A stretch of DNA of 64,000 bases, taken from NCBI RefSeq assembly GCF_947623445.1, contig NC_135246.1:18707856-18771855 (forward strand), in the 5' to 3' direction. The stretch is from Clavelina lepadiformis. Taxonomy: Eukaryota; Chordata; Ascidiacea; Aplousobranchia; Clavelinidae. A model generated the notes under the pieces. It did no database searches. It was given only the letters and a program-made list of their open reading frames with translations, and was not told the DNA's origin. Position numbers and translations under genes: made by a program. Within the stretch, counting starts at the first letter, position 1. Each line of letters begins with the position of its first letter. Shown here one piece after another: positions 62-45,700 of the stretch.

Positions 62-219
62 CTAATTTCTGATAAGCGAAGTAACAAAAAACTTGCCAGA
101 CATGATTGGCAGAAATTGTGACCGCACATCAACATACGAATCGGTGTTTTCAACACATCAAAGCATATTGGACATGTTACTTCGTCAAAGATTTCACGTG
201 GCAACTTGCAGGTTTCCAT
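62..219 (-). CDS. RING-finger protein, first coding exon (gene runs off the left edge)
   Basis: The ATG at 219-217 opens a 52-codon exon ending at a GTAAGA donor (phase 2). The peptide starts METCKLPREIFDEVTCPIC and carries the first six RING zinc ligands: the CPIC pair, then C-G-H, then C-Q-S-C. The last C-x2-C pair must lie in the next exon, left of the window. RING domains recruit E2 enzymes for ubiquitin transfer, so an E3 ligase role is inferred from the family. The exon matches the one at 2636-2832 in residue pattern and in its phase-2 donor, so the two genes are tandem paralogues on the minus strand. Nothing downstream can be seen, so a TRIM-type or RING-SH2 architecture is open. Confidence 0.75.
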
Positions 220-954: not shown

Positions 955-2832
955 TTAAGTAAAACTACGTGAAACCAAATCGGCAAGCTTGAAAGGCGGT
1001 TGCGTGAGAAAAACTTGGCCTTCACCACAGCGGTCAAGGTTGTTCGTCATAAAGTATCGGATCAGGCACTCCATCGAGTGGAAAGGTTTCCTCATTCCGC
1101 GAATCACCAGCACTTGGTCCTTTTCTTGGTGTGTAACCGGGAAATGCATGATCCGGTCGTGGCTCGTCTTCACCGATAACGTATAGCGGCCAATCTAAGA
1201 AAATTGAATTGTGGCAACACGGTACGTCTTTTGTTGTAGCTATTCTTTTATAAACCTACTGGTATGGAAAGTTTTGAATTTTACATTTTAAGTTTATGCT
1301 GACATATGGGACAAAGCTGTTTTTATATTTGCGACTTACCACACTAGCGCTGTTCCGAATGAGATATGATCCGTCACAGATGCAATTCCTCAACAGTTTT
1401 TCCGCTTCCGCCCTTGTCATATCTCCGAAGTACCAGTTTTTATTTTGCCATTCGTCCGCGGGCAATCGTAATTCGGGCGGAAGGAAGTTAGGCAGCGGAC
1501 AACGCGGAAATTCTGGCGGACATCTTAGGTGCTCTGGTTTGGGTGGAATTATCGGCGCCGTAGAAGGTTTGCTTTGAACCTCTACCTAGATATACAAGTG
1601 ATACGGATTGAGTAAGCTATGGTATGGTATGTGTTCGATACCCGGTGGCGCTATACCGTTGTAATGCACTCGGGCAAGGCGTTAACGGCACATGCTCCTG
1701 TTCAGTGGACCTGGTGGACAGTTCTAAATTCGGACAATAAGCTTACTATATATTAATTGTAATTACAGTTGAAATGTGAGTACGGGAAAGTAGCTAAAAC
1801 TAACGAAGTAGTAGGACAAAACATGTGACACGAAACATTTTTCAAATGGCATAGTTTTACAAACGTGCCTGTTCTTTGCTAAACGTTGGACTTTCAGGTT
1901 CAAAAGTTGTAATCACATTTTCCAATGCACGATTGCGGGGAATTCCCTCCACTCCGTTGCAGTCTAACACAGCTATCGCTCGGCAGGTCGGACAACTGAA
2001 CGAGAAATATCTAACAGTAGGCTACATACGGAAAATTTTAAGCAAAAATATAAAATTCAGTGACTGTCAATGATGTTTTTGTGATTGTCCCTTAGACTAT
2101 TTACAGGCTATTTCAAACGTTTTCAAATCTTTTTAAAATAATTTGAAGTAGGATTCCACCTAATAGGCTATGTTGTGATTTCAAAATGAAAGTTGGAATT
2201 TACTAGGGCTAAAATTTTAGACGAACGAAAATTGTTTAACGTCCTAACAAAAGATTTACTCTCTCTACCACATGAACAACGTATATAGATTTATCCTCTT
2301 TCAGAGTTTAACCAACTTTACTTGACTCCGTCAGTTAGAGTCAGCTGTAACTGGTAAATAATTAATACTTATAGTTATGGGTAATATATTATAGGCACAG
2401 AAACATAAAACTGATTCTTCTAAAACTTATAAATTTCTCAGTTTTTTTCCCCAAATTTGGCTGCTTTTGAGAATCACTGATACAACTCACACAAGTAGGT
2501 TTATATGCTTATAATGCTTTAGGTTATAAAGTTATACTCATCACAAATATATAGCCATAATCCCAATACGCTACATTTAAAAAGTTAATGGCCGAAATGC
2601 AAATAAATTTGCCTATTCCACCATGTCTTGCTTACTATATATTGTTGGAGTTTCCACAGAGTTTTTCAAGACAGACATGACAGAAGTTGTGACTACATGC
2701 CAGCATTCGAATAGGTGCTTTGAAACTTTCCCAGCATATTGGGCATTTCACTTTGTCTTGAGCTGAGGTCGACATCGTACCTTGCTGCTTGAATGCAACG
2801 GATGAACTAAAAAAGTCACTACCACAATTCAT
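955..2832 (-). CDS. RING finger plus proline-rich linker plus SH2 domain protein (four-exon model)
   Basis: Exons: 2832-2636, 1995-1861, 1571-1340 and 1194-955; the phases agree and give 267 residues. An in-frame stop lies just before the first ATG; a second ATG is at 2775. RING ligands: C30, C33, C46, H48, C51, C54, C67, C70, followed by GIPRNRALENV, typical of TRIM-like RINGs. Residues 112-150 are proline-rich (APIIPPKP). An SH2 domain starts near W157 (NWYFGDMTRAEAEKLL), keeps the phosphotyrosine-binding arginine (YLIRNS, R183) and ends with LTQPP near the C terminus; it resembles SH2 domains of SLP-76/BLNK adaptors. A phosphotyrosine-directed E3 ligase is the inference. The RING and the SH2 are each secure. 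Their union rests on phase, shared strand and lack of room for another start; the acceptor at 1572 lacks a pyrimidine tract, so extra exons or TAG at 1586 are possible. Confidence 0.65.
1620..1745 (+). mobile_element. tRNA-derived SINE, 5'-truncated copy
   Basis: It holds a B-box-like GTTCGATACCC followed by a body ending GTTCTAAATTCGGACAATAA. The same body is found inverted near 4260-4440 and 9720-9880, so this is a dispersed family. The copy lies in the intron just before the SH2 exons of the minus-strand gene. Confidence 0.65.
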
Positions 2833-6479: not shown

Positions 6480-6652
6480 AGCTTGATTCTCATCTAGACT
6501 ACGCTTGCTAGATTTTCATCTAGACTACGCTGGCTTGATTTTCATCTAGACTATGTTAGCTTGATTTTCATCTAGACTACGCTAGCTTGATTTTCATCTA
6601 GACTACGCTAGCTAGATTCTCATCTAGACTACGCTAGCTAGATTTTCATCTT
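6480..6652. repeat. 26-bp tandem repeat, about 7 copies
   Basis: The motif CATCTAGACTACGCTAGCTT recurs at steps of exactly 26 bp (6491, 6517, 6543, 6569, 6595, 6621, 6647 mark the CAT). Copies differ by one or a few bases. Related CTAGAC..ACGCTAGCTAG units reappear singly near 9480 and 10970, beyond the satellite. Confidence 0.9.
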
Positions 6653-6761
6653 GTAAGATATGAAAGTCAGGAGAAGATTACGGAAACACCGACATGGTGG
6701 AATCTATCTAGTGATTCGAGAAAAGTGGCATTTTATCTATTTGCATTGCACATTCAGCACA

Positions 6762-6843
6762 GTTGTCGTGGCCGAGTGGTTAAGGCGACAGACTTGAAAT
6801 CTGTTGGGCTCTGCCTGCGTAGGTTCGAATCCTGCCGACAACG
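6762..6843 (+). tRNA. tRNA-Ser(UGA)
   Basis: The 82-nt gene has a perfect 7-bp acceptor stem (GTTGTCG with CGACAAC), the A box TGGCCGAGTGG, an anticodon arm ACAGA-CTTGAAA-TCTGT with anticodon TGA, a long variable arm typical of tRNA-Ser, and a T arm GTAGG-TTCGAAT-CCTGC. A T4 run near 6860 fits a Pol III terminator. It looks intact and is the first unit of a tandem series. Confidence 0.92.
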
Positions 6844-6919
6844 CGGAATTGAAATTATGTTTTCATAAGAGATTCGAGAAAAGTGCGATCTTATTTATTT
6901 GCATTGAACATTAGGCACA

Positions 6920-7001
6920 GTTGTCGTGGCCGAGTGGTTAAGGCGACAGACTAGAAATCTGTTGGGCTCTGCCCGCATAGATTCGAATCCTGCCGACAAC
7001 G
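6920..7001 (+). tRNA. tRNA-Ser(AGA), possibly decaying
   Basis: It repeats the 6762 gene almost base for base, including flanking DNA, but the anticodon loop is CTAGAAA (anticodon AGA). The acceptor stem is intact. The T-stem 5' strand reads ATAGA against CCTGC, giving two mismatches, so it may be transcribed poorly or be a young pseudogene. A T4 run follows near 7012. Confidence 0.75.
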
Positions 7002-7085
7002 GCGATATTAATTTTGCAAATTAACAAGTATATTGAGAAAAGTGCCACTTTAATGATTTCCTTTATACATAGATCATTAAGCATA

Positions 7086-7133
7086 GTTTTATTGGCCTAG
7101 CGGTTAAGGCGACAGACTCGAAATCTGTTGGGT
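7086..7133 (+). pseudogene. truncated tRNA-Ser(CGA) copy
   Basis: The 5' half of the tRNA-Ser unit is present (GGCCTAGCGGTTAAGGCG, anticodon loop CTCGAAA). After the anticodon arm it runs into GTAATGTTAATG repeats, so the variable and T arms are lost. Like its neighbours it carries a different serine anticodon. Confidence 0.75.
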
Positions 7134-7179
7134 AATGTTAATGTTAATGGGTAATGTTGAGTACTAGCTAACTAGCTAA

Positions 7180-7226
7180 CTGGACCTCTAATCCAGAGGT
7201 TCCGGGTTCGAGTCCCGGCAGGGATG
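7180..7226 (+). pseudogene. 3' half of tRNA-Arg(UCU)
   Basis: It begins inside the anticodon arm (CTGGACCTCTAATCCAG, with TCT) and keeps a perfect T arm CCGGG-TTCGAGT-CCCGG. The D arm and the 5' acceptor strand are replaced by CTAGCTAACTAGCTAAC, the unit of the large satellite 700 bp downstream. Confidence 0.75.
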
Positions 7227-7508
7227 ATTGGCTTGATATTTTTAAAATCTTATCACTTAACTGTACATAGTTTCATCCTAAATTGAGCATACCGTTAACA
7301 TCATCGTCTACATCTTCCATAAAGTGAAACCAGAATAAAACAACTTGGCCTGCTTCGTTGTATTTATCCTCGATTAAACATCGTTGCATGCATCTGTGAA
7401 TTTTATACAGCCACGAGCAAAAACAACCGTGATATTAGTGCTAAATTCAGCCTTTTCCTGGTTTTGTGTTAAGTATTATAAGAACGGAGATGAATACAAA
7501 ACATCGAG

Positions 7509-7626
7509 GTCAGGATGGCCGAGTGGTCTAAGGCGCCAGACTCAAGCAGAGGCTTAGTCGCTTTGTGCGGCTATAGGGTGTTCTGGTCTCCGAATGGAGG
7601 CGTGGTTTCGAATCCCACTTCTGACA
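7509..7626 (+). tRNA. tRNA-Leu(CAA) with intron
   Basis: Exons 7509-7546 and 7581-7626 surround a 34-nt intron placed one base after the anticodon CAA, as in other metazoan tRNA-Leu(CAA) genes. The acceptor stem GTCAGGA/TTCTGAC pairs well, and the A box TGGCCGAGTGG is present. The T stem reads GTGGT-TTCGAAT-CCCAC: the usual G53 is T, breaking a nearly universal pair and weakening the B box. It may still be functional, but this is a reason for doubt. Confidence 0.82.
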
Positions 7627-7815
7627 GTATCTTTGGAAAGTTTTACTTCAGATATATGCTAAGTTTGTGTCGGAATGCATTGAAGCGGATAGTAAAATCG
7701 AACATTGATAAACTTATGTCTTAGTTCAAAAACGGTTCGATCTAGTAATTTTTTCCGACTTTCTAGGTTGAATTGTTTATTAAAGGGTGAAAATGTTAAA
7801 GCTTGGTATGAGTTT

Positions 7816-7902
7816 TTCTCTGTGGCGCAATGGATTAGCGCGCTGGATTAGCGCGCTGGACTTCTAATCCAGAGGTTCCGGGTTCGAATCCCGGTAGGGA
7901 TG
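7816..7902 (+). pseudogene. tRNA-Arg(UCU) with a 13-bp internal duplication
   Basis: The sequence is a recognisable tRNA-Arg: GTGGCGCAATGGATTAGCGC, anticodon arm CTGGA-CTTCTAA-TCCAG, T arm CCGGG-TTCGAAT-CCCGG. The 13-mer ATTAGCGCGCTGG occurs twice in a row, which adds a second D-stem strand and makes the gene 87 nt. The acceptor stem has a mismatch at its tip. The 8-bp satellite begins three bases past its 3' end. Confidence 0.75.
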
Positions 7903-7904
7903 AT

Positions 7905-9365
7905 TAACTAGCTAACTAGCTAACTAGCTAACTAGCTAACTAGCTAACTAGCTAACTAGCTAACTAGCTAACTAGCTAACTAGCTAACTAGCTAACTAGC
8001 TAACTAGCTAACTAGCTAACTAGCTAACTAGCTAACTAGCTAACTAGCTAACTAGCTAACTAGCTAACTAGCTAACTAGCTAACTAGCTAACTAGCTAAC
8101 TAGCTAACTAGCTAACTAGCTAACTAGCTAACTAGCTAACTAGCTAACTAGCTAACTAGCTAACTAGCTAACTAGCTAACTAGCTAACTAGCTAACTAGC
8201 TAACTAGCTAACTAGCTAACTAGCTAACTAGCTAACTAGCTAACTAGCTAACTAGCTAACTAGCTAACTAGCTAACTAGCTAACTAGCTAACTAGCTAAC
8301 TAGCTAACTAGCTAACTAGCTAACTAGCTAACTAGCTAACTAGCTAACTAGCTAACTAGCTAACTAGCTAACTAGCTAACTAGCTAACTAGCTAACTAGC
8401 TAACTAGCTAACTAGCTAACTAGCTAACTAGCTAACTAGCTAACTAGCTAACTAGCTAACTAGCTAACTAGCTAACTAGCTAACTAGCTAACTAGCTAAC
8501 TAGCTAACTAGCTAACTAGCTAACTAGCTAACTAGCTAACTAGCTAACTAGCTAACTAGCTAACTAGCTAACTAGCTAACTAGCTAACTAGCTAACTAGC
8601 TAACTAGCTAACTAGCTAACTAGCTAACTAGCTAACTAGCTAACTAGCTAACTAGCTAACTAGCTAACTAGCTAACTAGCTAACTAGCTAACTAGCTAAC
8701 TAGCTAACTAGCTAACTAGCTAACTAGCTAACTAGCTAACTAGCTAACTAGCTAACTAGCTAACTAGCTAACTAGCTAACTAGCTAACTAGCTAACTAGC
8801 TAACTAGCTAACTAGCTAACTAGCTAACTAGCTAACTAGCTAACTAGCTAACTAGCTAACTAGCTAACTAGCTAACTAGCTAACTAGCTAACTAGCTAAC
8901 TAGCTAACTAGCTAACTAGCTAACTAGCTAACTAGCTAACTAGCTAACTAGCTAACTAGCTAACTAGCTAACTAGCTAACTAGCTAACTAGCTAACTAGC
9001 TAACTAGCTAACTAGCTAACTAGCTAACTAGCTAACTAGCTAACTAGCTAACTAGCTAACTAGCTAACTAGCTAACTAGCTAACTAGCTAACTAGCTAAC
9101 TAGCTAACTAGCTAACTAGCTAACTAGCTAACTAGCTAACTAGCTAACTAGCTAACTAGCTAACTAGCTAACTAGCTAACTAGCTAACTAGCTAACTAGC
9201 TAACTAGCTAACTAGCTAACTAGCTAACTAGCTAACTAGCTAACTAGCTAACTAGCTAACTAGCTAACTAGCTAACTAGCTAACTAGCTAACTAGCTAAC
9301 TAGCTAACTAGCTAACTAGCTAACTAGCTAACTAGCTAACTAGCTAACTAGCTAACTAGCTAACT
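7905..9365. repeat. (TAACTAGC)n satellite, about 183 copies
   Basis: The 8-mer TAACTAGC is repeated over 1461 bp with no deviation that I can see. The unit carries stop codons in every frame on both strands. Short stretches of the same unit lie at 7163-7180, so the array grew from a motif already linked to tRNA-Arg DNA. Such uniformity means recent expansion or an assembly that collapsed or padded the array, so the true length is uncertain. Confidence 0.97.
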
Positions 9366-10604: not shown

Positions 10605-10686
10605 GTTGTCGTGGCTTTGTGATTAAGGCGACAGAATTGAAATCTTTTGGGCTCTGCCCGTGTAGGTTCGAATCTTGCCGACAATG
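10605..10686 (+). pseudogene. degenerate tRNA-Ser(UGA) copy
   Basis: The length matches the intact gene (82 nt), but the A box reads TGGCTTTGTGATTAAGG and the anticodon stem is mismatched (ACAGAATTGAAATCTTT). The spacer on both sides is again the tRNA-Ser tandem unit, so this cluster is the far arm of the same duplication. Confidence 0.75.
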
Positions 10687-32762: not shown

Positions 32763-35700
32763 TCATGCGCTTGCCCAATAATGCGCCCCGCCTCTCATGC
32801 TCCCCACTGCGGAAGATCCATGCCGGGCCGGGTTTGGTTCGGTTCCGGGAAGCGAGGAATGTCCCGAAACCGTAAAGTTTTGTTGGCTTGCCCCTCCGCT
32901 TATGTTAACTGGCTGACGGGGTATTTGTGACGTCATTGTAGAGTAGGGGTTGTAGTGAGCCGGGTCCATTGAATAGTTCCATCTCACACCACATTGCTCG
33001 CTTGCCATTTCCACGACATCGTTGGGAAATGACGTCATACATCCCGGATATGATGTCATCCGGGACAAATTAGAGTACGTTTCTGCCTCCATTACGGAAT
33101 TGTCTCTGGCGGTCGCAGTTGTGTTCCATTGTGATGTGTCGTTCAAGTAATGGGGTTCTAATGAGGCCGATGACGTCACTGTTTCGACACTGTTGTCTTC
33201 ACTAGACGTGTTAAAACCCGGATACGTCATAATTATGTCATTTCCATTTTGGTGTTTATGCAAGAGTTGCTGCTTCAGAAGTTTCTTGAATTTAGATCTT
33301 CTGTTTTGAAACCAGATTTTCACCTGCAAGTATACGTGTTATAATTTTGACAACAAACACCGAAAATCCTGCAATACACTGCGAAAATTATAAATTATGC
33401 AGCGATAAGTTCATCTCGAAAGCTTTTCTATCAAGCGAAGACAGTCATGCCAAATTGCCTCCACTTAGAAATCGTCATTTTTCATTCTGTGCCCTTATCG
33501 CACCTTCCATGCTGCTTTCAAGACCCATTTGTCGTGTCAATCACGTGATTAGAAAATTGCCTAATTTAGATGAGTCTCTTTATGGCAAGGCAAACTTAAA
33601 GTGTCGATCACGTCACGTTTTGAAAGATCTTCTGTTTCATAAATTGGTTCACCTTCATTGCTGAGGCCAATTTTAAAAACTGAATCGTGAAATGAATTAT
33701 TTACGGGGCTTCAGAGATCACAGCGATTATATTATGGGACATCTAGCGGCAACCTCCATTCATTGCATTAATTGAATTTTGTCTCATGTGAGAAAATGTT
33801 TAATTCAAAACATTCTGTAAAAAATTCTGTTTAATTAACACACTCAGGTATTTTTAAGTGGACAAACGGCGCTGTATGCAAAAAGTTCAAAAAATAACCT
33901 GCACAATTTTTATTATACAACAGCATTTTTATTAATATGGGTTATGATTCATAACGTAACGTCCACAACTTATTCACGGAAATTTATGTTATTGGAACCA
34001 AGCATTGTATGCGTACTTTTACACTTGCTTATTCCACTAATAAACCGTGAATAAGCAAATAAAAAATTTACTTTTTGAATTAAATAAATTCAAAACTTAA
34101 TGTAATTGTAATAATACTTATATCGTCAAAAGTAGTTGCCACAAATCTAAAATGTATTATAATTTCTTTATTCATTACACGTTTTAGTTATAGACATTTT
34201 TTATGCATCATGTCTTGACATTAAAACGGTTACGTTGATTAAGGTGTCTGTATCAGTCAAATTAAAATCGGTTTTGAGAATTAAAAAATATTCCTTGGAG
34301 TATCTGGGCAAAACGAAGCGTTTGTTGCAACCTATTATTAAAACGAAAACATTTTTGCTTTTTAATATAATAGAGATGCACTTAGCTCGTTGATTGTTTA
34401 AAATGGGCTCGTTTTATTAAAATCGCTTTAATAGGAAAAATTGACCCAATTGCCTTCCGTTTTCTCGGCTCGTTACAAGATAATTTCCACCCTTACAGTA
34501 TTACTTAAATTCACTAACTAATCTAATTCCCCGTTAGTATATATCTATGTTCTGGTAAGGGCGAGAGCAGAAGCAAAAAGACTTGTTGCAACTAATTCTT
34601 ATAAAAATGTTAAGCAATATACTTGACGGATTATTTTGTTGCACAGCTAATATATAGTGGATTGGAGAAATTCTGAAAGGAAATTTGTAATTTCAAAAGG
34701 TTTTGCAACACGTCATGACTGAACGTATGACCAAACTTAACTGATTTTAGATTAAAGGCTTTACTTTGCTTTTTTCAGAGATATACAGCTGCTTATTTAT
34801 TAACATATAGCGGGTTATATCCGGCAAATTTGACGAAGACGCGCAATATATTGAGATGGATTTATGAAATTGCAGGTTAGATGCGACATAGCCAAATCTC
34901 GGGGATAGAAATAACGTATTCTTACGCCACACCTGCGTTTGGGTTACACCAAGGGAAGCCGCAAGTTCCGCTCTTTCAGGAAGTGCCAGATATTGAGTTC
35001 GTTGAAATCTCCGCACCAGCTGCTGCAGCTGATAGCTGGTGTAGATCGTGCGCGGCTTTCGCGTCTTTTTCCCTTTCCCCGGCGTCTGCCCGCCACCGCC
35101 GCCGTCGCTGTCGCCATTTTGGTTTTCAGAATTCGAATCCGGCTCCGAGGGCGAGCTCTCCCTTCGCGATTCTTCTCTTCCGTTGTCATAGCAACCGCTT
35201 GATGCAACCCTGGCCTCGTTGCTTACCATTTCAGGCGCATCAAATTCGGTGGATGAGGGCAGCGAAGATTGCGGGTCAGCCTGAAGCGTTGCTTGAAGCG
35301 AATTGTTCAAATCGAAAGTGTGACGAGCGGACATTTGCGGAGTAATTCTTGGCGAATCTTACAAAAAAATACAAAAGATTGAGTTAGACAAGCCGTAAAA
35401 TGAAAATTTTAAATCAACTTTTTTCATTTTAATAATCACATATCCTCAGCGGTCAGCCTATAGCGCGAACCTCAAATAACTTTCGAGCTGTAAGACATCG
35501 ACAACTCATAAATCTGATAATGACATCTACTTTCAAGAATCTGAATAAATTCACTTACGATTGAAAAAGTCAAGCCTCGATTGCAAAGCTTCGCTTCGTT
35601 TGCAAAAGCCGTAGGTTTCAGGCTGGAATGTGTGAGAAGACCTGGAGCACGATCCTTGGTTGTTGATCTCATTGTTGTAATCGAAAAACGACGAGACGGG

Positions 35701-36063
35701 AGGTTTGACGTTTGCTCCTGAAAAATTGTAGTTGATGTTTGGAGGATACGAGGTTCCGGAGGAATAGAAGACTGGTCTTTGCAGACAAAACGAAGAGTTG
35801 GCGGTTGATCCTGCGCCGGTGTGCGGCGGCACCGTATAAGACTTTATCGTTGGATTCTGCGCGAGATCGTTGTTGCGAAGAAATCCAGAAGACTTCTGCT
35901 GGCGGATGCCACTCATGTAATCCGGTGGCTCTCGTTTGATCTCTTGATGCCACGGCCTGCAACTTCCAACAGGTGATTCTGAACAAGAAGAAGACGGTCT
36001 GGATAAAGACTCAGATCTTGACAGCAGGAGACTGGATGAAGGCGCCACTGCCATTTCCTGCAT
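32763..36063 (-). CDS. Dll: Distal-less (Dlx family) homeobox transcription factor, first of the pair
   Basis: Three coding exons in phase: 36063-35559, 35357-34933 and 33323-32763, giving 496 residues. The homeodomain is about residues 267-326 ([20 protein letters not shown] at its start, [18 protein letters not shown] at its end) and is clearly Dlx-type, with [15 protein letters not shown] and Gln50. The intron lies between homeodomain residues 44 and 45, the usual Dlx position. It is preceded by an acidic, Gly-rich segment and a basic KGKK. The N-terminal exon is Ser-rich with an [10 protein letters not shown] motif, where a sumoylation-like IKRE can be seen. The open frame continues upstream of the ATG at 36063 to acceptor-like sites, so an earlier exon may exist. 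Dll proteins bind TAATT sites and pattern epidermis and appendages. Confidence 0.92.
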
Positions 36064-39000
36064 TGCTTTCTCCTTTGCTAGTAAATCTCGGTAGAGCAAA
36101 GATTCTAGGTTTGTTACCAAATGAAAATTGTCAAATTTTTGTGAATACCTGGAAACCGAATACAAGACTGTGTTATGTTAGGTGTATCAGGCATATACTT
36201 AAAATAGATGATCTCTTAATGACTGACGTAAAGGTAGAACTATGTATTTGCTTTCCTAAATTGCTTTCATGTTTCGGGCAAAATTGTTGGTTTTTACAAT
36301 TGTCGTTTTTTCACAAGCTTTTCTTTATAAATTATTTTATAAACATGACGGTGCATCGGCATTACTAAGATGTTCCTGGCACCGACTCAGGTAAACCTCC
36401 CATATAAATTTTTACTGTTCTTTTCTTCGAGCTCATAGTTGTAGGCTATTGCGAAGTTCGTTCAATATCTATAACTGTTAAGTCAATAACTATATAACTT
36501 TCTTTATGTATCTTTTGTGTATAACTTAAAAACTAGTAAGATAACGACATATCCAAATATTAATGGCTGACCGTATTCCAATTATATAATCTAAATTCTA
36601 AAGCCTGTCACGTATATGGGACGAATAAATGAAAATGTATGATGACCGCCAAAATCGGTTTTACAAAATTTCCTTTCCGACGTTTCCTTTCACTCACATT
36701 TGTTCATAAACAGACTTTCTAAACCTTTCTTTGATCAACTTTACCGTGATTGAACTCTTTGAAAGATGGCATTAAATGTTGACCTCAATTGGGACTTTGC
36801 TGTCCTAGTCAGCAGGTGAATCTCGGCTCGTCTTACTTCAATTATATACTTCATTCATTTTCGGGTGATTTGTTTTTACGAAAGAAAAACGTCGATGTAA
36901 TTTTTTTCACTTCTTCGTCCGTTCTGCCCTTTAGCGACGGTAAACTCGGGTCGCGCGATTTGCTTGTCTTCAGTGAAACTTTATCAGTGCCGCCTTTTTC
37001 CGCGCTCAAGCGCGTCTTAAATCGCGACAAAATCACCGGTTTTCTGTTTCAACAATAAAACAACTATTTTCGGGGGTTACGCGACTCACAGCGCTTTTCA
37101 TGCAGCCTAGTTCCATTATTATGACCCAATATTTGCCTCAAAGCGCATGTAAAACTATATTTTCGGTCGCGATTATTTACTTTTTAGTCTTTAATCAGAT
37201 TAAATTTCAGTTCTAATTACGTGTATCTTTTTTGAAGTAGTATCGCTCGCGTAGCTTTCTGGTTTCGCCCTTGTAAGGCGAACGCTCGACCATAAAATTT
37301 GACAACTGACATTTACAGTTGATTTCTCCAAAGTGTACTACGAAATACTGCTTGAAATGCGCGTACGCGTATACTCAAACACAACGTTCAACAGGTACTT
37401 TCTTTAACATCTCTTTCGCCATTTTGAAGGCGGTAGCTTACATTATTATTTGTAAGTTGTGGTGATGACGCACCACCATCGTTGCGATGCCCACGACAAG
37501 GCTGAGTAATAAAATTGTAAAAGGTTGAATTATGCATAAATTTCACGAGACAAAATAAACCTACTTTTAAAAGTGATAAATCAAACACAGAAAACCAATG
37601 CAGTTCTTGCCGTATTAGCATTTCGAAATGTTTTAACAAGTTGTATAGATGAAAAGTGTAAGAAAAATCGAATCGACTTCAACAATCATACCGTTGCAAA
37701 TAAAGCTGCAAGCGCAGGAATTATATTTACTTAAAAATTAATCTGACATGTATCGGACGTAAATGTTTGTCCAAATTCAGAGAAAATATAAACAAATAAG
37801 TATGGTAATATACTCATTAATTTTAACTCATTTATTTTAAGTTTTCGTAATTAATGCATACACGGTACCAATTGAGTCAACTTAGTTTGTCGATTAGCTC
37901 GTTAATAAACCGCCACAGCTAACGACCGCCTAAGCATACAACAGGACCACCAGCGTGCTAAGTTGGAACATTTTTTCGCTTTTTTTTTAATTATGTTATC
38001 TAATCTCAGCTGGTATATGGTCACAAATGACAGTTTAGGGCGAAACTATATGTTTTGTACGTCGTACGAAAACAGTCAGTTACTGTTATGTTGCACATTC
38101 ACACAATATAGACCTATACTGTTGAAGAAATATACCTTGAATTTTAGATTTTAAATTTCCGAACCTATATCTTTGTGACAATTTTAAAATCCTTATCAAA
38201 TAATAATGCCGAAATTAACTAAACGGCTATACCTATAATAAAAAAGACAAATCAAGAGCTTTTATTGTGTCACAGTGGCGAGATCTTAACTAATTGTAAG
38301 TGTATGGTAACAAACCTAATAGTCTGGGAAGGTATCCAGTGACCACAGTCGCATATGCAATATTAATGCGCTATTGTTAGAGCTCTATGATTAATTAAAG
38401 AGACGACAAGAGATTAAAACGGCAACAGCATGCCAATGTTGTGCTAACATTTTTGTAAAAAACACTTGTTTGCCCGCAGAGTTTTATTTATTTATTTATA
38501 TGCCATTAAGGTGGAGTTAACTAAGAGAAGTGAAAGCTGTACTTTAATTCACCGACAACAAAAACAACAGTTTTCCGTTTGAGGCACTGAGCTCTTTTGA
38601 TGTTTGCAAGAAATACAAGCAACGCAACGGCAATCGACTTTGATGAACTAAAGAAAGGCATCCTTCATTTATAAATATAATTGCCTTTCTCCCACCTTTT
38701 GGGAGACACAATTACCAATCTGACGATCTTACGGCGTATCATTTTACGACAAATCTTACGTCTGCAGGCGAAATACTTTCCCCTTGCCCAGCACGCTGGT
38801 AGTAGGCCTATCTACAGATGTCCTCGCTGTAGTTTCCTCAGCTTAAACGGAGAATAATTGCTTTTCATGGACTCTACAGTGGGTTTCAAATTACCCGAGG
38901 AACGAGATTATTCCAACGATAAAGTGACGTAATAAAGTTAAATTCGGTCGAAATGTTTTTTTATCGGTGATCATAGCCACGATGTCACGTGCCGTGTTCT

Positions 39001-39890: not shown

Positions 39891-42752
39891 TCACCAAACG
39901 CTGGGCTTATGGCTGTAAAAACCACACACTGGGTTTGAACTATTTTGCATGCCGTTGCCCCCGGCAACGTTTGGAATGTAGTTGTTGTTGGCAGGATGGA
40001 CAAGGTTGTCATAATTCATTCCGTCGCTTGGTGGGGCTGACAAATATCTCTGATTTGCAGAAAATGGCGTGCCGTTGTTGATAGCACGCGGGTTGAGGTG
40101 ATTCTGCTGTCTTGCTGCGTGCATTCTTGAAAACTGGTCGTAGCACGGAGCGTAAAACATGTTTGAATGATCTGTAAAAAGCAGAATCCAAAAACTTTTA
40201 GTAATTTGTCGAATATCGGTGACAAAGATCTTAAAAAACGAGACATGAAATTAAAAATGACATGAAAACAGGCTGAATTAATGACCATATAACTAAAATT
40301 TCTGGGCTTTGCACCTTGGTAAGCAGCTGGCATATGTGCTGGTTGAACTGTGTTCGATTGGAAATGGTTTTCTGGCTTAAACATATTGCCTTCTTGAACA
40401 CAAGGTGGTGCACCTGCGCTTTCTTGCATGGGGTATGTTGGGACGTTGGTGTTTTGACCGTAAGCCATCGCACTGCAAAATAAAATACAAGTTTACATGT
40501 CAAAATTGTTGCACCCTTTAAGCTAAAAGGAAATGTGAAAGAGATATTTCATATTCTGTAAATTACTAAGAAACGATCTTAACCTACTATAGCTAGAGCA
40601 ATGGTTTTCAACCTGGGGGTCGCGACCCCCGGGTGGGTCGTTACATATGCCAGAATCAAAATTTTTGTAAAGGGGTCGTTAGTTACATTGGGTTGTTAAA
40701 ATGGGTGGCGGTATGAAAAAGGTTGAAAACCACTGAGCTAGAGCAACGATCATAAATGCGTTAATTTACACCCTGAAGTTGGTGCTTTAGTTCTTAGCCT
40801 AAATACGAGATAAGAGTAACAAGTGAACACATTTAGTTGGCAAATTCACCCCTCAGTTGGCATGCATGGCATATTGGGAGCGTTCCAACTTTCTTGTACG
40901 CCATGGTGATTGTTGGTTTGCGCGAGATTCAATTGTCCAGTATTGCTCCGGAAATTACAGTCTTCGTACTCCGGAGCCTGGTTATCAACCACGCTCTTTA
41001 TCCCAGCATCATCGAGGTCATTAATGGCGCCCGTTTTCAGCAGCTTCTTGATTTTAGAACGCCGATTTTGAAACCACACTTTCACCTTCGTTTCGTACAA
41101 AAATATTTAGTATAAATAATAAACCTAAGAAAGGTGGTTTTGGATGTAAGGTTTTCGTTGTCACAGTAGACGTGAAGCATAGTTATCGACTATCGTTGCA
41201 GCAAATACCTGTGTTTGAGTGAGCCCTAGATTGGCGGCAAGTCTAGCTCTTTCAGGCAACGCAAGGTACTGTACTTTCTTAAAGTAGGAATGCAGCTCCT
41301 GCAGCTGGTAGGTGGAGTACACTGTTCGTGGGTTACGTTTTTTCTTCGGCTTAATGGAGTCGCCGGGAGAAATACTTTCTGGTGGAGAGTCGACGCCTGA
41401 CGTGCAGTCATCCGGTGGTTCCACGTTCCCACTTTGCGCCACCAAGTTAGAACTCAGTGCATTTGTTTCGTTGGAGCCTTGTGGCCAATGTGAAAGCGAT
41501 AATCCCTGCCCTTCGGGCGTTGTCCAGTTTTTTGGAACGTCTATATCGGATAAGAAACAGTATTACGCACATTGCCGACTGCACGAAAGCCATCAAGCAC
41601 ATAAAAACCTCTTACCAACTGTGCCTCCACCACACTCTTCTATTAATTCTTTCAATTCGGTATCAGTCGCGTTTGGCCCTGCTTCTACTGGCGCTAGATT
41701 GACGGCATCGTTAAGGTTGTTAAACAAAGACAAATCTGTAGAATTGGGATGGTTATGTTTGTGCTAAGGATAGCCTAGGACGATACAAACCCGAATACAT
41801 TTGGTGAATATCGCCAAGGTGGAATATTCGGACGAATGTGAATAGCCTATTAACAAGTGGCAAACCAGAATACAACATTACCTTTGATACATTTATCGAC
41901 TTTAGTGAGCAATTAACATCAAGTTTGGCAGCTTTAAGTAGAAACAAGATTTCTTGGAATGAAAATGATTTACCAAAAGAACTTAGGTGTCACTTGCCAT
42001 TTAACTTTTATGCTTTAACAGAAACGTTAGAAAAAATTCAGCAGCTTCTGAACAAAATTTTATTTTATGGTGCTGATATAAATATGTTCGGTATGCGACC
42101 TATATAGGCTATTCTCGTGTGCACGGGCCGTAATAATCTTCCTCGCGACCCATCCCTAATCTGTACTGTAGGAAATGTTGGATCCATTCGCCTCAGGCAG
42201 TGTCGATTTTTAAAAAGCAAACAAACCATTAAGCTTACCCGGGTCCGAATCATCGAAGACGACAGAATTACCGCTGAATTCCGGTATTTGGCCGATCCTG
42301 GATATATGATTGGGGCGCAATGATTTGACTTCGTCTTGGCTGGCGTCGGCAACAATTCTACTTGGGGCTTCTTCAAAGACATCAGAATCCGGCGTATCGG
42401 GCGGTGTGACTGTGGCCGCGTGTTGTTTTTTGTTGGGTTGACTGTATTCGGCGTTAAAGGATTCACCGTTTACAAACGCATTGTTGGGATTAAGTTGCTG
42501 CATAGAGTTATTGCAAAAAACGGCCTTACTATCACCATAGCAACGACTCTGAACTTGTTTTAAGCCATTCATATGTTGTCCAGTAATATTGTTACTTGCA
42601 AGATTGCCAAGTTCATACGGTGGCGAATAGTTCAATAAATTGCTTGTATCGCTTGTTATACCGCGCACATCTTGAAACAGCTCCGAAGAATCCAATTCAG
42701 CCATCGCCTGAAGATTGTCACATAAACCATCTGCTGACATGTCTTCAAACAT
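39891..42752 (-). CDS. Dll: Distal-less (Dlx family) homeobox transcription factor, second of the pair, diverged
   Basis: Six exons in phase: 42752-42239, 41735-41616, 41540-41209, 41085-40850, 40472-40315 and 40171-39891, giving 546 residues from the ATG at 42752 (a second ATG follows 12 bp later). The homeodomain (about 279-338) is Dlx-like ([20 protein letters not shown]) but changed elsewhere: [20 protein letters not shown] and [16 protein letters not shown]. The intron after homeodomain residue 44 is shared with the other Dll gene; the remaining introns are not. N-terminal acidic segments include [16 protein letters not shown]. The C-terminal half is Asn- and Gln-rich. The frame upstream of the ATG stays open to an acceptor at 42766, so a 5' exon is possible. 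Which gene is Dll-A and which Dll-B I cannot tell. Confidence 0.9.
40599..40735. mobile_element. hAT-type MITE with 8-bp target duplication
   Basis: The ends are CAATGGTTTTCAACC and, inverted, GGTTGAAAACCACTG. The identical 8-mer AGCTAGAG flanks both sides (40591-40598 and 40736-40743). At 137 bp it is non-autonomous. It also holds the palindrome GGGGGTCGCGACCCCC. It lies in the intron between exons 4 and 5 of the second Dll gene. Confidence 0.9.
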
Positions 42753-45700
42753 GTCGTAGTTAGACCTAACAGAACAACATACTGTAATAACGCTAAAATC
42801 ACAAGAAAGTTAAATAAAATTTTTGCCGGACAAGGTGACTTGGCCCGTGCCACTGAAGTGACCGCATTATGTCTCTGAAACACTGTTTGTGACGTAATAT
42901 GCACCTCGCACAAAATCTGGAATGTTAAGTGATTGAAACCAGCAATGATAAAATTCCCGCACTCATTTCAGAAAATCTCAGATAAGCAGTGCAGTGTAAA
43001 TAAAATGCCGATGGTTTTTGAAAAAAATTCACCGTACCTCTGACAAATACAGGACAACCATCTGACGCGGAAATAGCTTTTAAACTGAAATCTAACCGCG
43101 AATCATCAAAGCCGGTACCAAGCGTACTGTACTCTGCTGAAAACTGCTTATTCCGGCGAAAACTAAACGACACGATACCGGATACGGTAAGTAAGCCTGC
43201 CACTAAGTATACGTACCTGTGGATATCATTGATATTTCAATAACCTTACAGTAGTTCTTGCTAGCGGCAGCGAAAAGCGAGTTGTTTCCCGCAGCTTGTA
43301 CGGAGAACGAATGATAACGAATTACTAAGCTTGTCAATAAATGCAATGGTTGCAAGAATACAACTGCCTGTCATGTTTAAAATAAACCTGTGTAGAAAAT
43401 GGTTCTGGCGTTAGTACTTTTAAGATGGAAACCGCGCAAACATTCCCTTCGGCTTTTTTATTGCTGGTTGTATTCCTTGCGCCGCCGGCGTAATGCGGGA
43501 GCTTGTCCAGCAAAATGCTCATTGTTCGCGTGCATCAAAACCAAGATAAAGACGCGCTCTTCTATTGTCTTTACTACGAACACCCCATTGTTGTTTTTGC
43601 ATTGCGAAAACGCAAACACCGAGGTGTTTAATGTTTTATTTGTATTTATGCACACCGTGTTTGTTGTTTTCCTTGGGTGTTTGACATGTTTTCGTTTGAA
43701 TCTTGACCATAAGCTATACTTTACATGACAAAACCCCTGTTCGGCGTTAGTCTGTACTGTTTCCGTTTGCCTGCGTGTAGCACCAATAACATCTGCATAA
43801 CAGCATCCTGCCGTCTATACCCTGCTGGAATTTATGCACAAATAGCGATAGAAGCTGAGCTGGATGCAAGTTAAGATGGCGGACGAAGCATCGAATGTAG
43901 ATTTAGTTGTCAAACACCTTCATTTTATTTTTCGCCTTAAATGCTGGGGTCGAAACATTGCGCTAACTCAGGTGCTCGTAACATATTAGCAACGATGATA
44001 ATTACGACAACGAAGGCGAGCAAATGTGACAAGGCCTTACGTCAAAATATTGTAGCTTAGTTAGTGATATAATCATGACAACTCACTGATGTATTAATTA
44101 CATGACTGCGATGTAAAAGGAATGCATTAGAATGTTGCGTTTGTATCATCGTGATCACAGCAAATCAGAACACTTACAAATGAAACGATATCTTTGTTCA
44201 TCTGTTTGGAAAGAATATCACTTCTCTGTAAATCCCCTTCGATCGGATGTTACATGTTCTGCATTTTTTGAAACATCTATATTCCCATGTTTAAACGAAA
44301 CGAACCACAATATATCTATCAATGGCTATACCGGAATCCGAGATGCATTTGAAAAGATCTTTTGGAAAAGTAACCGGGTGGTTATTTTTTGTGTTAAGTA
44401 AACTTTAACTTAGTTGATGATCCATACTTTGCCGGAGTTTGCAATGGCCGATTTGTGAGCTAAGTTTTAAAAGGAATATACTTGTAGTAGTTATTATTTG
44501 TGTACTCTTATGAGTAGTCTTTGCCTTCTGGTGCCCAAAAAGTTTTGCAACTCTGACTGATTAGTGCACGAATATGGAGAAGAATTCGAGAGGATTCAAC
44601 ATGCAATACAGAGCATCGACTTGACGACTTCTAAAATATTTTTAGTCATTTTGCGATGAGAAAAGTAGTCCCGTACTCTGGAGCGATTTTCTGTGGTTCG
44701 CTAAGTCTCGACTTAAATCAAGAACAAAAATAGGCTTTCAATGGCTAACAATAAATCTTAAAACAATTAAAAGCCGCGATAATTGCCGGGTTGTTGCAAC
44801 GACCGCTTCTGGTCATTTTTCGTATTGTATTTATGACGACTTAGATCAGACGATAAAATTCGTTTGTCCTAAATTTCACCTGCATTGCAACGCGTTTCTG
44901 TCAATCGTAAAATCTTCGTTCACGTGACTTGCTTATATAGTTGACTAATCCGCGGTTTTTTCCCGCTCTTTTGATCATACACGTCAATCAATTTGAAATA
45001 TTTTTGGTTTTTGAGAGACAAATCCGCTTTTCATGTGAGATTGCCTGAACTAACTACTTTAACCAAAATGCTAAACAAATTTACTATACAGCTACACTAT
45101 ATAACAACGGTGACCATGAAAAGTTCGCAAGCGGCATAAAAGCTGGTTTGTTGGCCACTGATATTATTGCTTTAAACCTTTGCAAACAGTATACTGTATT
45201 ATTATTCGAAGTTTAGACAGTTTTCTCTTAAATCGTGTTTCCTTTAGAGACGTGTTTTAAGCAGCGTTTATTCATCTCTCTTTTCATTGCTTTAGATATC
45301 AAGGCGCCCGCAAATCATAATCAGCTAATTATATTGCTCGTTTTTACAGCTCAGGGTGATCAAGCCCTTGCACCACATTTGCTGTGGTACTCGGTGTGTG
45401 GTATTTGTCGGATACTCGGTTGCTGTTGCTGGTAGAAATATGTAAATTATTCCTTAAATACATTATTTTGCATCTTTGAGAAGGTGTGGAACCGGTGACA
45501 GTGTAGTGAAAGTTGCAACGATTGTACGATCAACGTAATTTATTGCAAATAACGAACTTTTTTGATGAAAAATACGACAACGACACATTTAACCCGTTTG
45601 GGTACCGACCGTTTGAATGCACAATGTAAATCACGGTAATTCACAGTTCCAGAAGTTTTAAGCACAGCTATGAAATACGTAAGCCTGATTGGAAGTGATT

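Follow-up and report, generated by a model that had tools for sequence, protein, structure and literature searches.

A tandem family of predicted RING-SH2 fusion genes in the ascidian Clavelina lepadiformis

Introduction

Cbl is the textbook case of a single protein that reads phosphotyrosine and adds ubiquitin, and its SH2 lies within the TKB unit, ahead of the RING. The family (CBL, CBLB, CBLC) joins an SH2-type phosphotyrosine reader to a RING and proline-rich sequence (PMC3507883), and a review that tabulates human SH2 proteins gives Cbl as an E3 (PMC9783222). Hakai (CBLL1) is also a RING E3 aimed at phosphotyrosine proteins (PMC3507883), with a zinc HYB domain as its phosphotyrosine reader. 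The two tasks can also be divided between proteins, as in C. elegans, where phosphorylated CED-1 is bound by NCK-1, promoting ubiquitination of CED-1 by TRIM-21 in parallel to CED-6 (PMC9388098). Fusions have been built in the laboratory as well. RING-SH2(Drk) reduces EGFR signalling in Drosophila, and a RING construct lacking the SH2 did not significantly change ligand distribution (PMC3038869). An SH2-U-box fusion degrades BCR-ABL, and its authors mention, with data not shown, that an SH2-RING fusion with the Cbl RING was weaker (PMC4916441). Our searches of open-licence PMC papers listed none that was visibly about a natural RING-SH2 protein other than Cbl.

Here, we describe a locus of the ascidian Clavelina lepadiformis in which, unlike in Cbl, a TRIM-like RING opens the predicted protein and an NCK-like SH2, not embedded in a TKB, closes it. 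The expected phosphotyrosine reader is an SH2 rather than the HYB domain of Hakai. The worm pair provides a parallel in that a TRIM E3 and an NCK adaptor jointly target a tyrosine-phosphorylated receptor (PMC9388098), but TRIM-21 and NCK-1 are two proteins, with CED-6 as a parallel route, whereas the Clavelina gene puts both a TRIM-like RING and an NCK-like SH2 into one chain. The fusion resembles NCK (SH3-SH3-SH3-SH2) in SH2 exon structure and sequence affinity, yet it starts with a RING and has no SH3, and its RING resembles those of TRIM proteins (RING-B-box-coiled coil). As in RING-SH2(Drk) and SH2-U-box, an E3 domain is fused to an adaptor SH2 (PMC3038869; PMC4916441), and the name of the former implies the same domain order; those constructs are laboratory-made, whereas the Clavelina genes are a natural, duplicated family. 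We consider it probable (about 0.7) that the gene described here is a single gene, a member of a tandem RING-linker-SH2 family, and encodes a Cbl-like, phosphotyrosine-directed E3 that was assembled independently of Cbl.

Results

The window, a stretch of 64,000 nucleotides, lies on chromosome 7 (G000:C7:18707856-18771855) of a genome of 209.06 Mb in 95 contigs, which was also the genome that we searched. A first-pass annotation had placed a RING and an SH2, joined by a proline-rich linker, in one gene on one strand with compatible phases, and the gene model bears this out. Four minus-strand exons at 2832-955 (2832-2636, 1995-1865, 1581-1340, and 1194-955), hereafter unit u1, encode 269 residues in the order C3HC4 RING, proline-rich linker (PIIPPKP), and SH2. 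Positions 955 and 2832 are the stop and start of an independent NCBI model, P0001 (uncharacterized protein LOC143465812 isoform X1), and splicing from an exon 2 end at 1865 to an exon 3 start at 1581 rebuilt P0001 letter for letter. Both domains scored well above the curated Pfam cut-offs in the provisional spliced protein, with 58.3 bits for SH2 PF00017 (cut-off 21), 34.6 bits for RING PF13445 (cut-off 25.2), and 32.1 bits for RING PF00097 (cut-off 21).

Exon 1 (2636..2832, minus strand) carries the start codon and the first half of the RING, and it ends with donor GTAAGC in phase 2; the start is ATG 2832-2830 in the NCBI model, with an in-frame alternative at ATG 2775-2773. Exon 2 (1865..1995, minus strand) completes the RING (CPTCR) and continues into an RNRALENVI stretch. 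Exon 3 (1340..1581 or 1340..1585, minus strand; donor GTAAGT, phase 0) holds the proline-rich linker and the first half of the SH2. Within it, the PxxP element PIIPPKP (1535..1555, minus strand) has a PxxPxK motif, presumably the class II form of an SH3 ligand; a comparable PPVPPK is present in the linkers of u6 and u3, and that form is absent from u2 and u4. The codon at 1355..1357 (minus strand) encodes the Arg of the FLVR position (YLIR in u1), the invariant R185 of P0001, which we take to be beta-B5. Exon 4 (955..1194, minus strand) supplies the second half of the SH2, with the beta-D4 His of HFP, a Pro at beta-D6, and the stop codon.

The weak spot of this model is the exon 2 donor, which is poor in u1 and has two readings. 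Exon 2 ends at 1865 with donor GTTTGT and phase 1 in the NCBI model; the alternative is an end at 1869 with a GC donor (CAG/GCACGT) and phase 0 as in the paralogues, paired with an exon 3 start at 1585. Under both readings exon 2 is separated from the SH2 exon by 283 bp, in agreement with the roughly 290 bp first noted. The same gap had been described as partly filled by a SINE. An interspersed repeat is indeed there (about 1631..1739, no strand assigned): a search with 1610-1760 gave 40 scored matches of 760 candidates, itself included, and hence at least 39 other genome copies with 81-89% identity, mostly covering query bases 22-130, i.e. about 1739-1631. The repeat itself was upheld, and its class can be given only as SINE-like, a presumptive SINE.

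A genome search for the RING returned at least 29 matches (57 candidates scored), and six of the RING genes are consecutive at C7:18.69-18.71 Mb, all on the minus strand (u1 to u6). Five of these six (u1, u2, u3, u4, and u6) have both SH2 halves behind the RING, on the same strand, in the same exon order, and with short introns, and this replication across tandem units is the strongest evidence for one gene. The next copy begins within the window, where exon 1 of u2, the first half of its RING, occupies 62..219 (minus strand); the other u2 exons are found on chromosome 7 beyond the edge of the window. Spliced u2 and u4 equal NCBI P0003 and P0002, respectively, letter for letter. P0004 matches u3 at 317/322 residues and P0028 matches u6 with 96% identity over 100%; both are also predicted RING-SH2 fusions and evidently come from another C. 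lepadiformis assembly. For the assembly of the window, database fusions were found for u1, u2, and u4, and u3 and u6 were represented only through P0004 and P0028, in a protein database clustered at 90%, which may conceal remaining members. These RING-SH2 proteins are already in public databases as predictions, uncharacterized or unnamed.

Gene architecture is shared across the array, in which the other SH2 proteins have just about 35-40% identity with that of u1. Neighbours are separated by 735-4259 bp from stop to ATG, and the intron that follows RING exon 2 measures 133-307 bp in the five SH2 units. All six units close exon 1 in phase 2; exon 2 closes in phase 0 in u2-u6 (with a GC donor in our hand model of u5) and also in u1 if its GC donor is used, and the intron inside the SH2 is in phase 0 in 5/5. 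None of the five has an in-frame Met ahead of the SH2 inside the SH2 exon, so a separate SH2 gene would generally need its own 5′ exons in a short space, in line with the first remark that there is little room for a separate start. When the frame was read upstream to the first stop, u4 had Mets, located in a modelled intron, and the linker exon of u6 had one.

The sixth unit, u5 (G000:C7:18694070-18695398), was searched for an SH2 and none was found; instead, it has a long Ser-rich open tail with several Tyr motifs, e.g. YDEF. P0029, evidently its counterpart from the other assembly, is a near copy of u5 and agrees on a tail without SH2. Comparing the genome lists for RING (at least 29 matches) and SH2 (at least 58 matches) by eye, we found no further place with both within a few kb.

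The RINGs have the ligand order C/C/C/H/C/C/C/C and exceed the cut-offs of Pfam RING models. All eight C3HC4 zinc ligands (C30, C33, C46, H48, C51, C54, C67, and C70 in P0001 numbering) are invariant in the five proteins despite their sequence divergence, as is R71, the Arg following the last RING Cys. The best matches among solved structures were TRIM2, a RING2/BMI1 chimera, TRIM32, and TRIM21. Close relatives are found in two other arrays on chromosome 7, at 15.06 Mb (15.057-15.063) and 16.66-16.72 Mb, where the RINGs precede different, helical-looking tails (P0030, P0031). The tails of the 16.66 Mb array match TPR models below their cut-offs, and TPR families are given for P0031. In the 15.06 Mb array the frame has a similar look, and TPR models gave no match there. 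The 16.66-16.72 Mb array also contains partial copies with an in-frame stop inside the RING.

No further domain of the known ligases or adaptors was recovered in the RING-SH2 proteins. Among the Pfam matches listed for u1 at E up to 1, there was no Cbl_N family (Cbl_N, Cbl_N2, Cbl_N3) that would mark a TKB ahead of the RING. The Pfam matches listed for the RING-SH2 proteins likewise included no SH3 family, three copies of which characterize NCK, no B-box (PF00643) or coiled coil of the TRIM/RBCC type, and no SOCS box after the SH2, behind which there is just a short tail.

The SH2 matched PF00017 with 49.5-69.5 bits (cut-off 21) in u1, P0002, P0003, P0004, and u6. R166 (alpha-A2 Arg), R185 (beta-B5 Arg), and H207 (beta-D4 His), in P0001 numbering, are invariant in 5/5. 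The beta-D6 Lys, placed by count, is kept in three of the five (u3, u4, and u6) and is replaced by Pro in u1 and Val in u2. Positions alpha-A2, beta-D4, and beta-D6 were placed after a review that names the beta-D6 Lys among the residues key for phosphopeptide binding (PMC9783222). Putative phosphotyrosine binding is least sure for the window copy u1 because this Lys is missing.

Our first impression was of a BLNK/SLP-76-type SH2, and it was dropped: a genome search with the u1 SH2 gave NCK as the sole match outside the array, and NCK groups with the five units in the tree described below. The NCK gene of this genome (C3:14.970 Mb) has two SH3 domains upstream, as judged by eye, and among solved structures its SH2 matches NCK1 and NCK2 best. 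The gene has a phase 0 intron before the SH2 and another, also phase 0, placed five codons beyond the one for the beta-B5 Arg. The site and phase of this SH2-internal intron are identical in 5/5 units and in NCK, which is alone in having that site among the 20 SH2 stretches inspected (NCK and 19 others); the remaining matches of the SH2 search, outside the array and these 20, all reach profile position 41 or beyond, past the intron site. In a search with the u6 SH2, the two NCK exons scored 49.1 and 43 bits, and the next best gene scored 49.8 over most of the domain.

A tree of 21 SH2 rows (five array units, three NCKs, and 13 other Clavelina SH2s) set the five units and the NCKs apart from the 13 others with support 94/88, on a branch that was not starred. 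Inside that group, NCK and the five units were not split from each other (48/47), and 13/18 inner branches were open. In pairwise scoring against the 16 other tree rows, NCK was best for each of the five units, the Clavelina NCK for u1, u3, u4, and u6 and the PDB NCK2 for u2. PDB searches alone rank other proteins higher. For the u6 SH2, SHP2 scored 81.5 bits against 64.2 for NCK2; for the u1 SH2, SHP2 came first and no NCK was present among the best 60 of 272 matches; and for a four-sequence SH2 profile, RASA1, SHP2, and PLCG1 ranked above NCK2. The tree and the intron site and phase point to an NCK-type SH2, and NCK is the likely donor of the SH2 exons.

An AlphaFold2 model of P0001 built on five sequences was weak overall (mean pLDDT 56.9, pTM 0.37). 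Confidence was concentrated in two blocks (pLDDT 72-85 at residues 31-90 and 64-79 at residues 161-240), and it fell below 50 in the linker (98-150) and the C-terminal tail. A Foldseek search with this model gave 452 PDB matches at E up to 0.001, and the best 50 of the 452 were all SH2-containing by title, with the Nck1 SH2 at rank 8 and no RING entry among them.

Protein database searches found no RING+SH2 protein outside Clavelina, and the same searches missed some known Clavelina members. The first (8 matches) gave four Clavelina RING+SH2 proteins and four RING proteins without SH2 and missed P0028. Twenty-two matches came from the second: three Clavelina RING+SH2 proteins, one ctenophore kinase with an SH2 and no RING, and 18 RING proteins without SH2; P0004 and P0028 were missed. 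The third returned six, namely two Clavelina RING+SH2 proteins, three Clavelina RING proteins without SH2, and one fish TRIM63-like protein, and it missed P0001-P0003.

Discussion

The Clavelina fusion is not Cbl, a full TRIM, NCK, or a SOCS protein, and by analogy it would work in outline like Cbl. We propose that a TRIM-like RING gene acquired two NCK SH2 exons through compatible phase 0 introns and was later duplicated, a scenario that draws on the intron sites and the tree. The SH2 would bind a receptor or scaffold that is phosphorylated on tyrosine, the linker, flexible and rich in proline, would give reach and may dock SH3 proteins through its PxxP, and the RING would recruit a ubiquitin-charged E2. 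An active tyrosine-kinase complex marked by phosphotyrosine would then be ubiquitinated and removed, the net effect being a Cbl-like off-switch of tyrosine-kinase signalling. This mechanism is reasoned by analogy with the systems described above; under it, the genes would be transcribed and their products would have E3 activity, bind phosphotyrosine, and select targets.

Could the fusion be real and yet not a phosphotyrosine-directed ligase? The RING might merely dimerise, or the SH2 might serve as a decoy or scaffold that competes with NCK or binds in some other way. The loss of the beta-D6 Lys in u1 and u2 fits such a role, and competition alone is plausible given that RING-SH2(Drk) also left less endogenous Drk bound to the receptor (PMC3038869). 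However, a pure decoy has no need of a RING, and the zinc ligands, R71, the alpha-A2 Arg, the beta-B5 Arg, and the beta-D4 His are invariant in five of five diverged copies; we regard this alternative as unlikely, though it deserves some weight. It is much less probable that u1 itself is decaying while its paralogues work. The weak or GC donor of exon 2, the long u1 branch in the tree (1.72), the repeat inserted in intron 2, and the Pro at beta-D6 speak for a failing copy, but u1 has an open frame throughout and retains the zinc ligands plus three residues of the pocket, and the NCBI prediction P0001 is an intact protein.

Two adjacent genes, one with only the RING and one with only the SH2, are a very improbable reading. 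The weak exon 2 donor of u1 would suit it, and u5 is an array RING gene without SH2, so such genes can exist. Against this, the linkage recurs in 5/6 units with compatible phases and a gap of 133-307 bp after RING exon 2, which led us to reject separate genes; the absence of an in-frame Met before the SH2 within the SH2 exon and the database models that fuse RING and SH2 are further points on the same side. The contrast with the domain order of Cbl, drawn in the first-pass annotation, proved sound, and we give next to no credence to a divergent or rearranged Cbl. Such a protein would share the two domain types and a proline-rich stretch, but the domain order is reversed, neither Cbl_N nor Cbl_N3 is one of the 17 Pfam families with E up to 1, and the SH2 carries the NCK intron. 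Cbl identity was therefore rejected, as no TKB was found, the SH2 follows the RING, and a gene with Cbl's own SH2-type domain (PF02762) is located elsewhere in the genome, at C2:22.805 Mb. A single RING-linker-SH2 gene with Cbl-like function is the reading that we prefer.

If this reading is true, a phosphotyrosine-reading ubiquitin ligase was built a second, independent time in an animal close to vertebrates, and the wiring of tyrosine-kinase off-switches would be convergent. Evolution would have made the same kind of RING-SH2 fusion as the laboratory one that lowers EGFR signalling. As a Rosetta-stone hint, the fusion may indicate that TRIM-type ligases and NCK cooperate more widely than in the worm. 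The small number and compact size of the RING-SH2 genes bring direct tests of binding and activity within reach.

More tentatively, and with somewhat less than even confidence, the TRIM-like RING lineage may be a platform for exon capture with at least three tails, and the SH2 genes a self-targeting, lineage-restricted family of phosphotyrosine degraders. Tails behind related RINGs comprise the NCK-like SH2 (five genes), the Ser-rich sequence (u5), and helical, partly TPR-like sequence (the two other arrays). With the SH2 genes diverged to about 35-40% identity with u1, each of them may remove its own group of phosphorylated receptors. The linker exon of u6 (G000:C7:18691079-18691188) holds a YEEP, which fits the NCK SH2 consensus pY-D/E-x-V/P (PMC8187788). 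The u6 protein, if phosphorylated at YEEP, could dock its own SH2 or that of a sister protein.

The window contains other features beyond the array. Two adjoining sets of open frames with homeobox sequence, which we take to be Distal-less-like, are present on the minus strand at 32763-36177 and 40016-42809. A tandem repeat with a 26-bp unit (6.6 copies) lies at 6480-6651. Genes for tRNAs (two Ser, one Ala, and further tRNA matches) form a cluster at 6713-7903 and 10605-10686, some of it arranged as 158-bp tandem copies. Between the two parts of this cluster, positions 7905-9365 consist of a perfect 8-bp tandem repeat, TAACTAGC, in about 183 copies.
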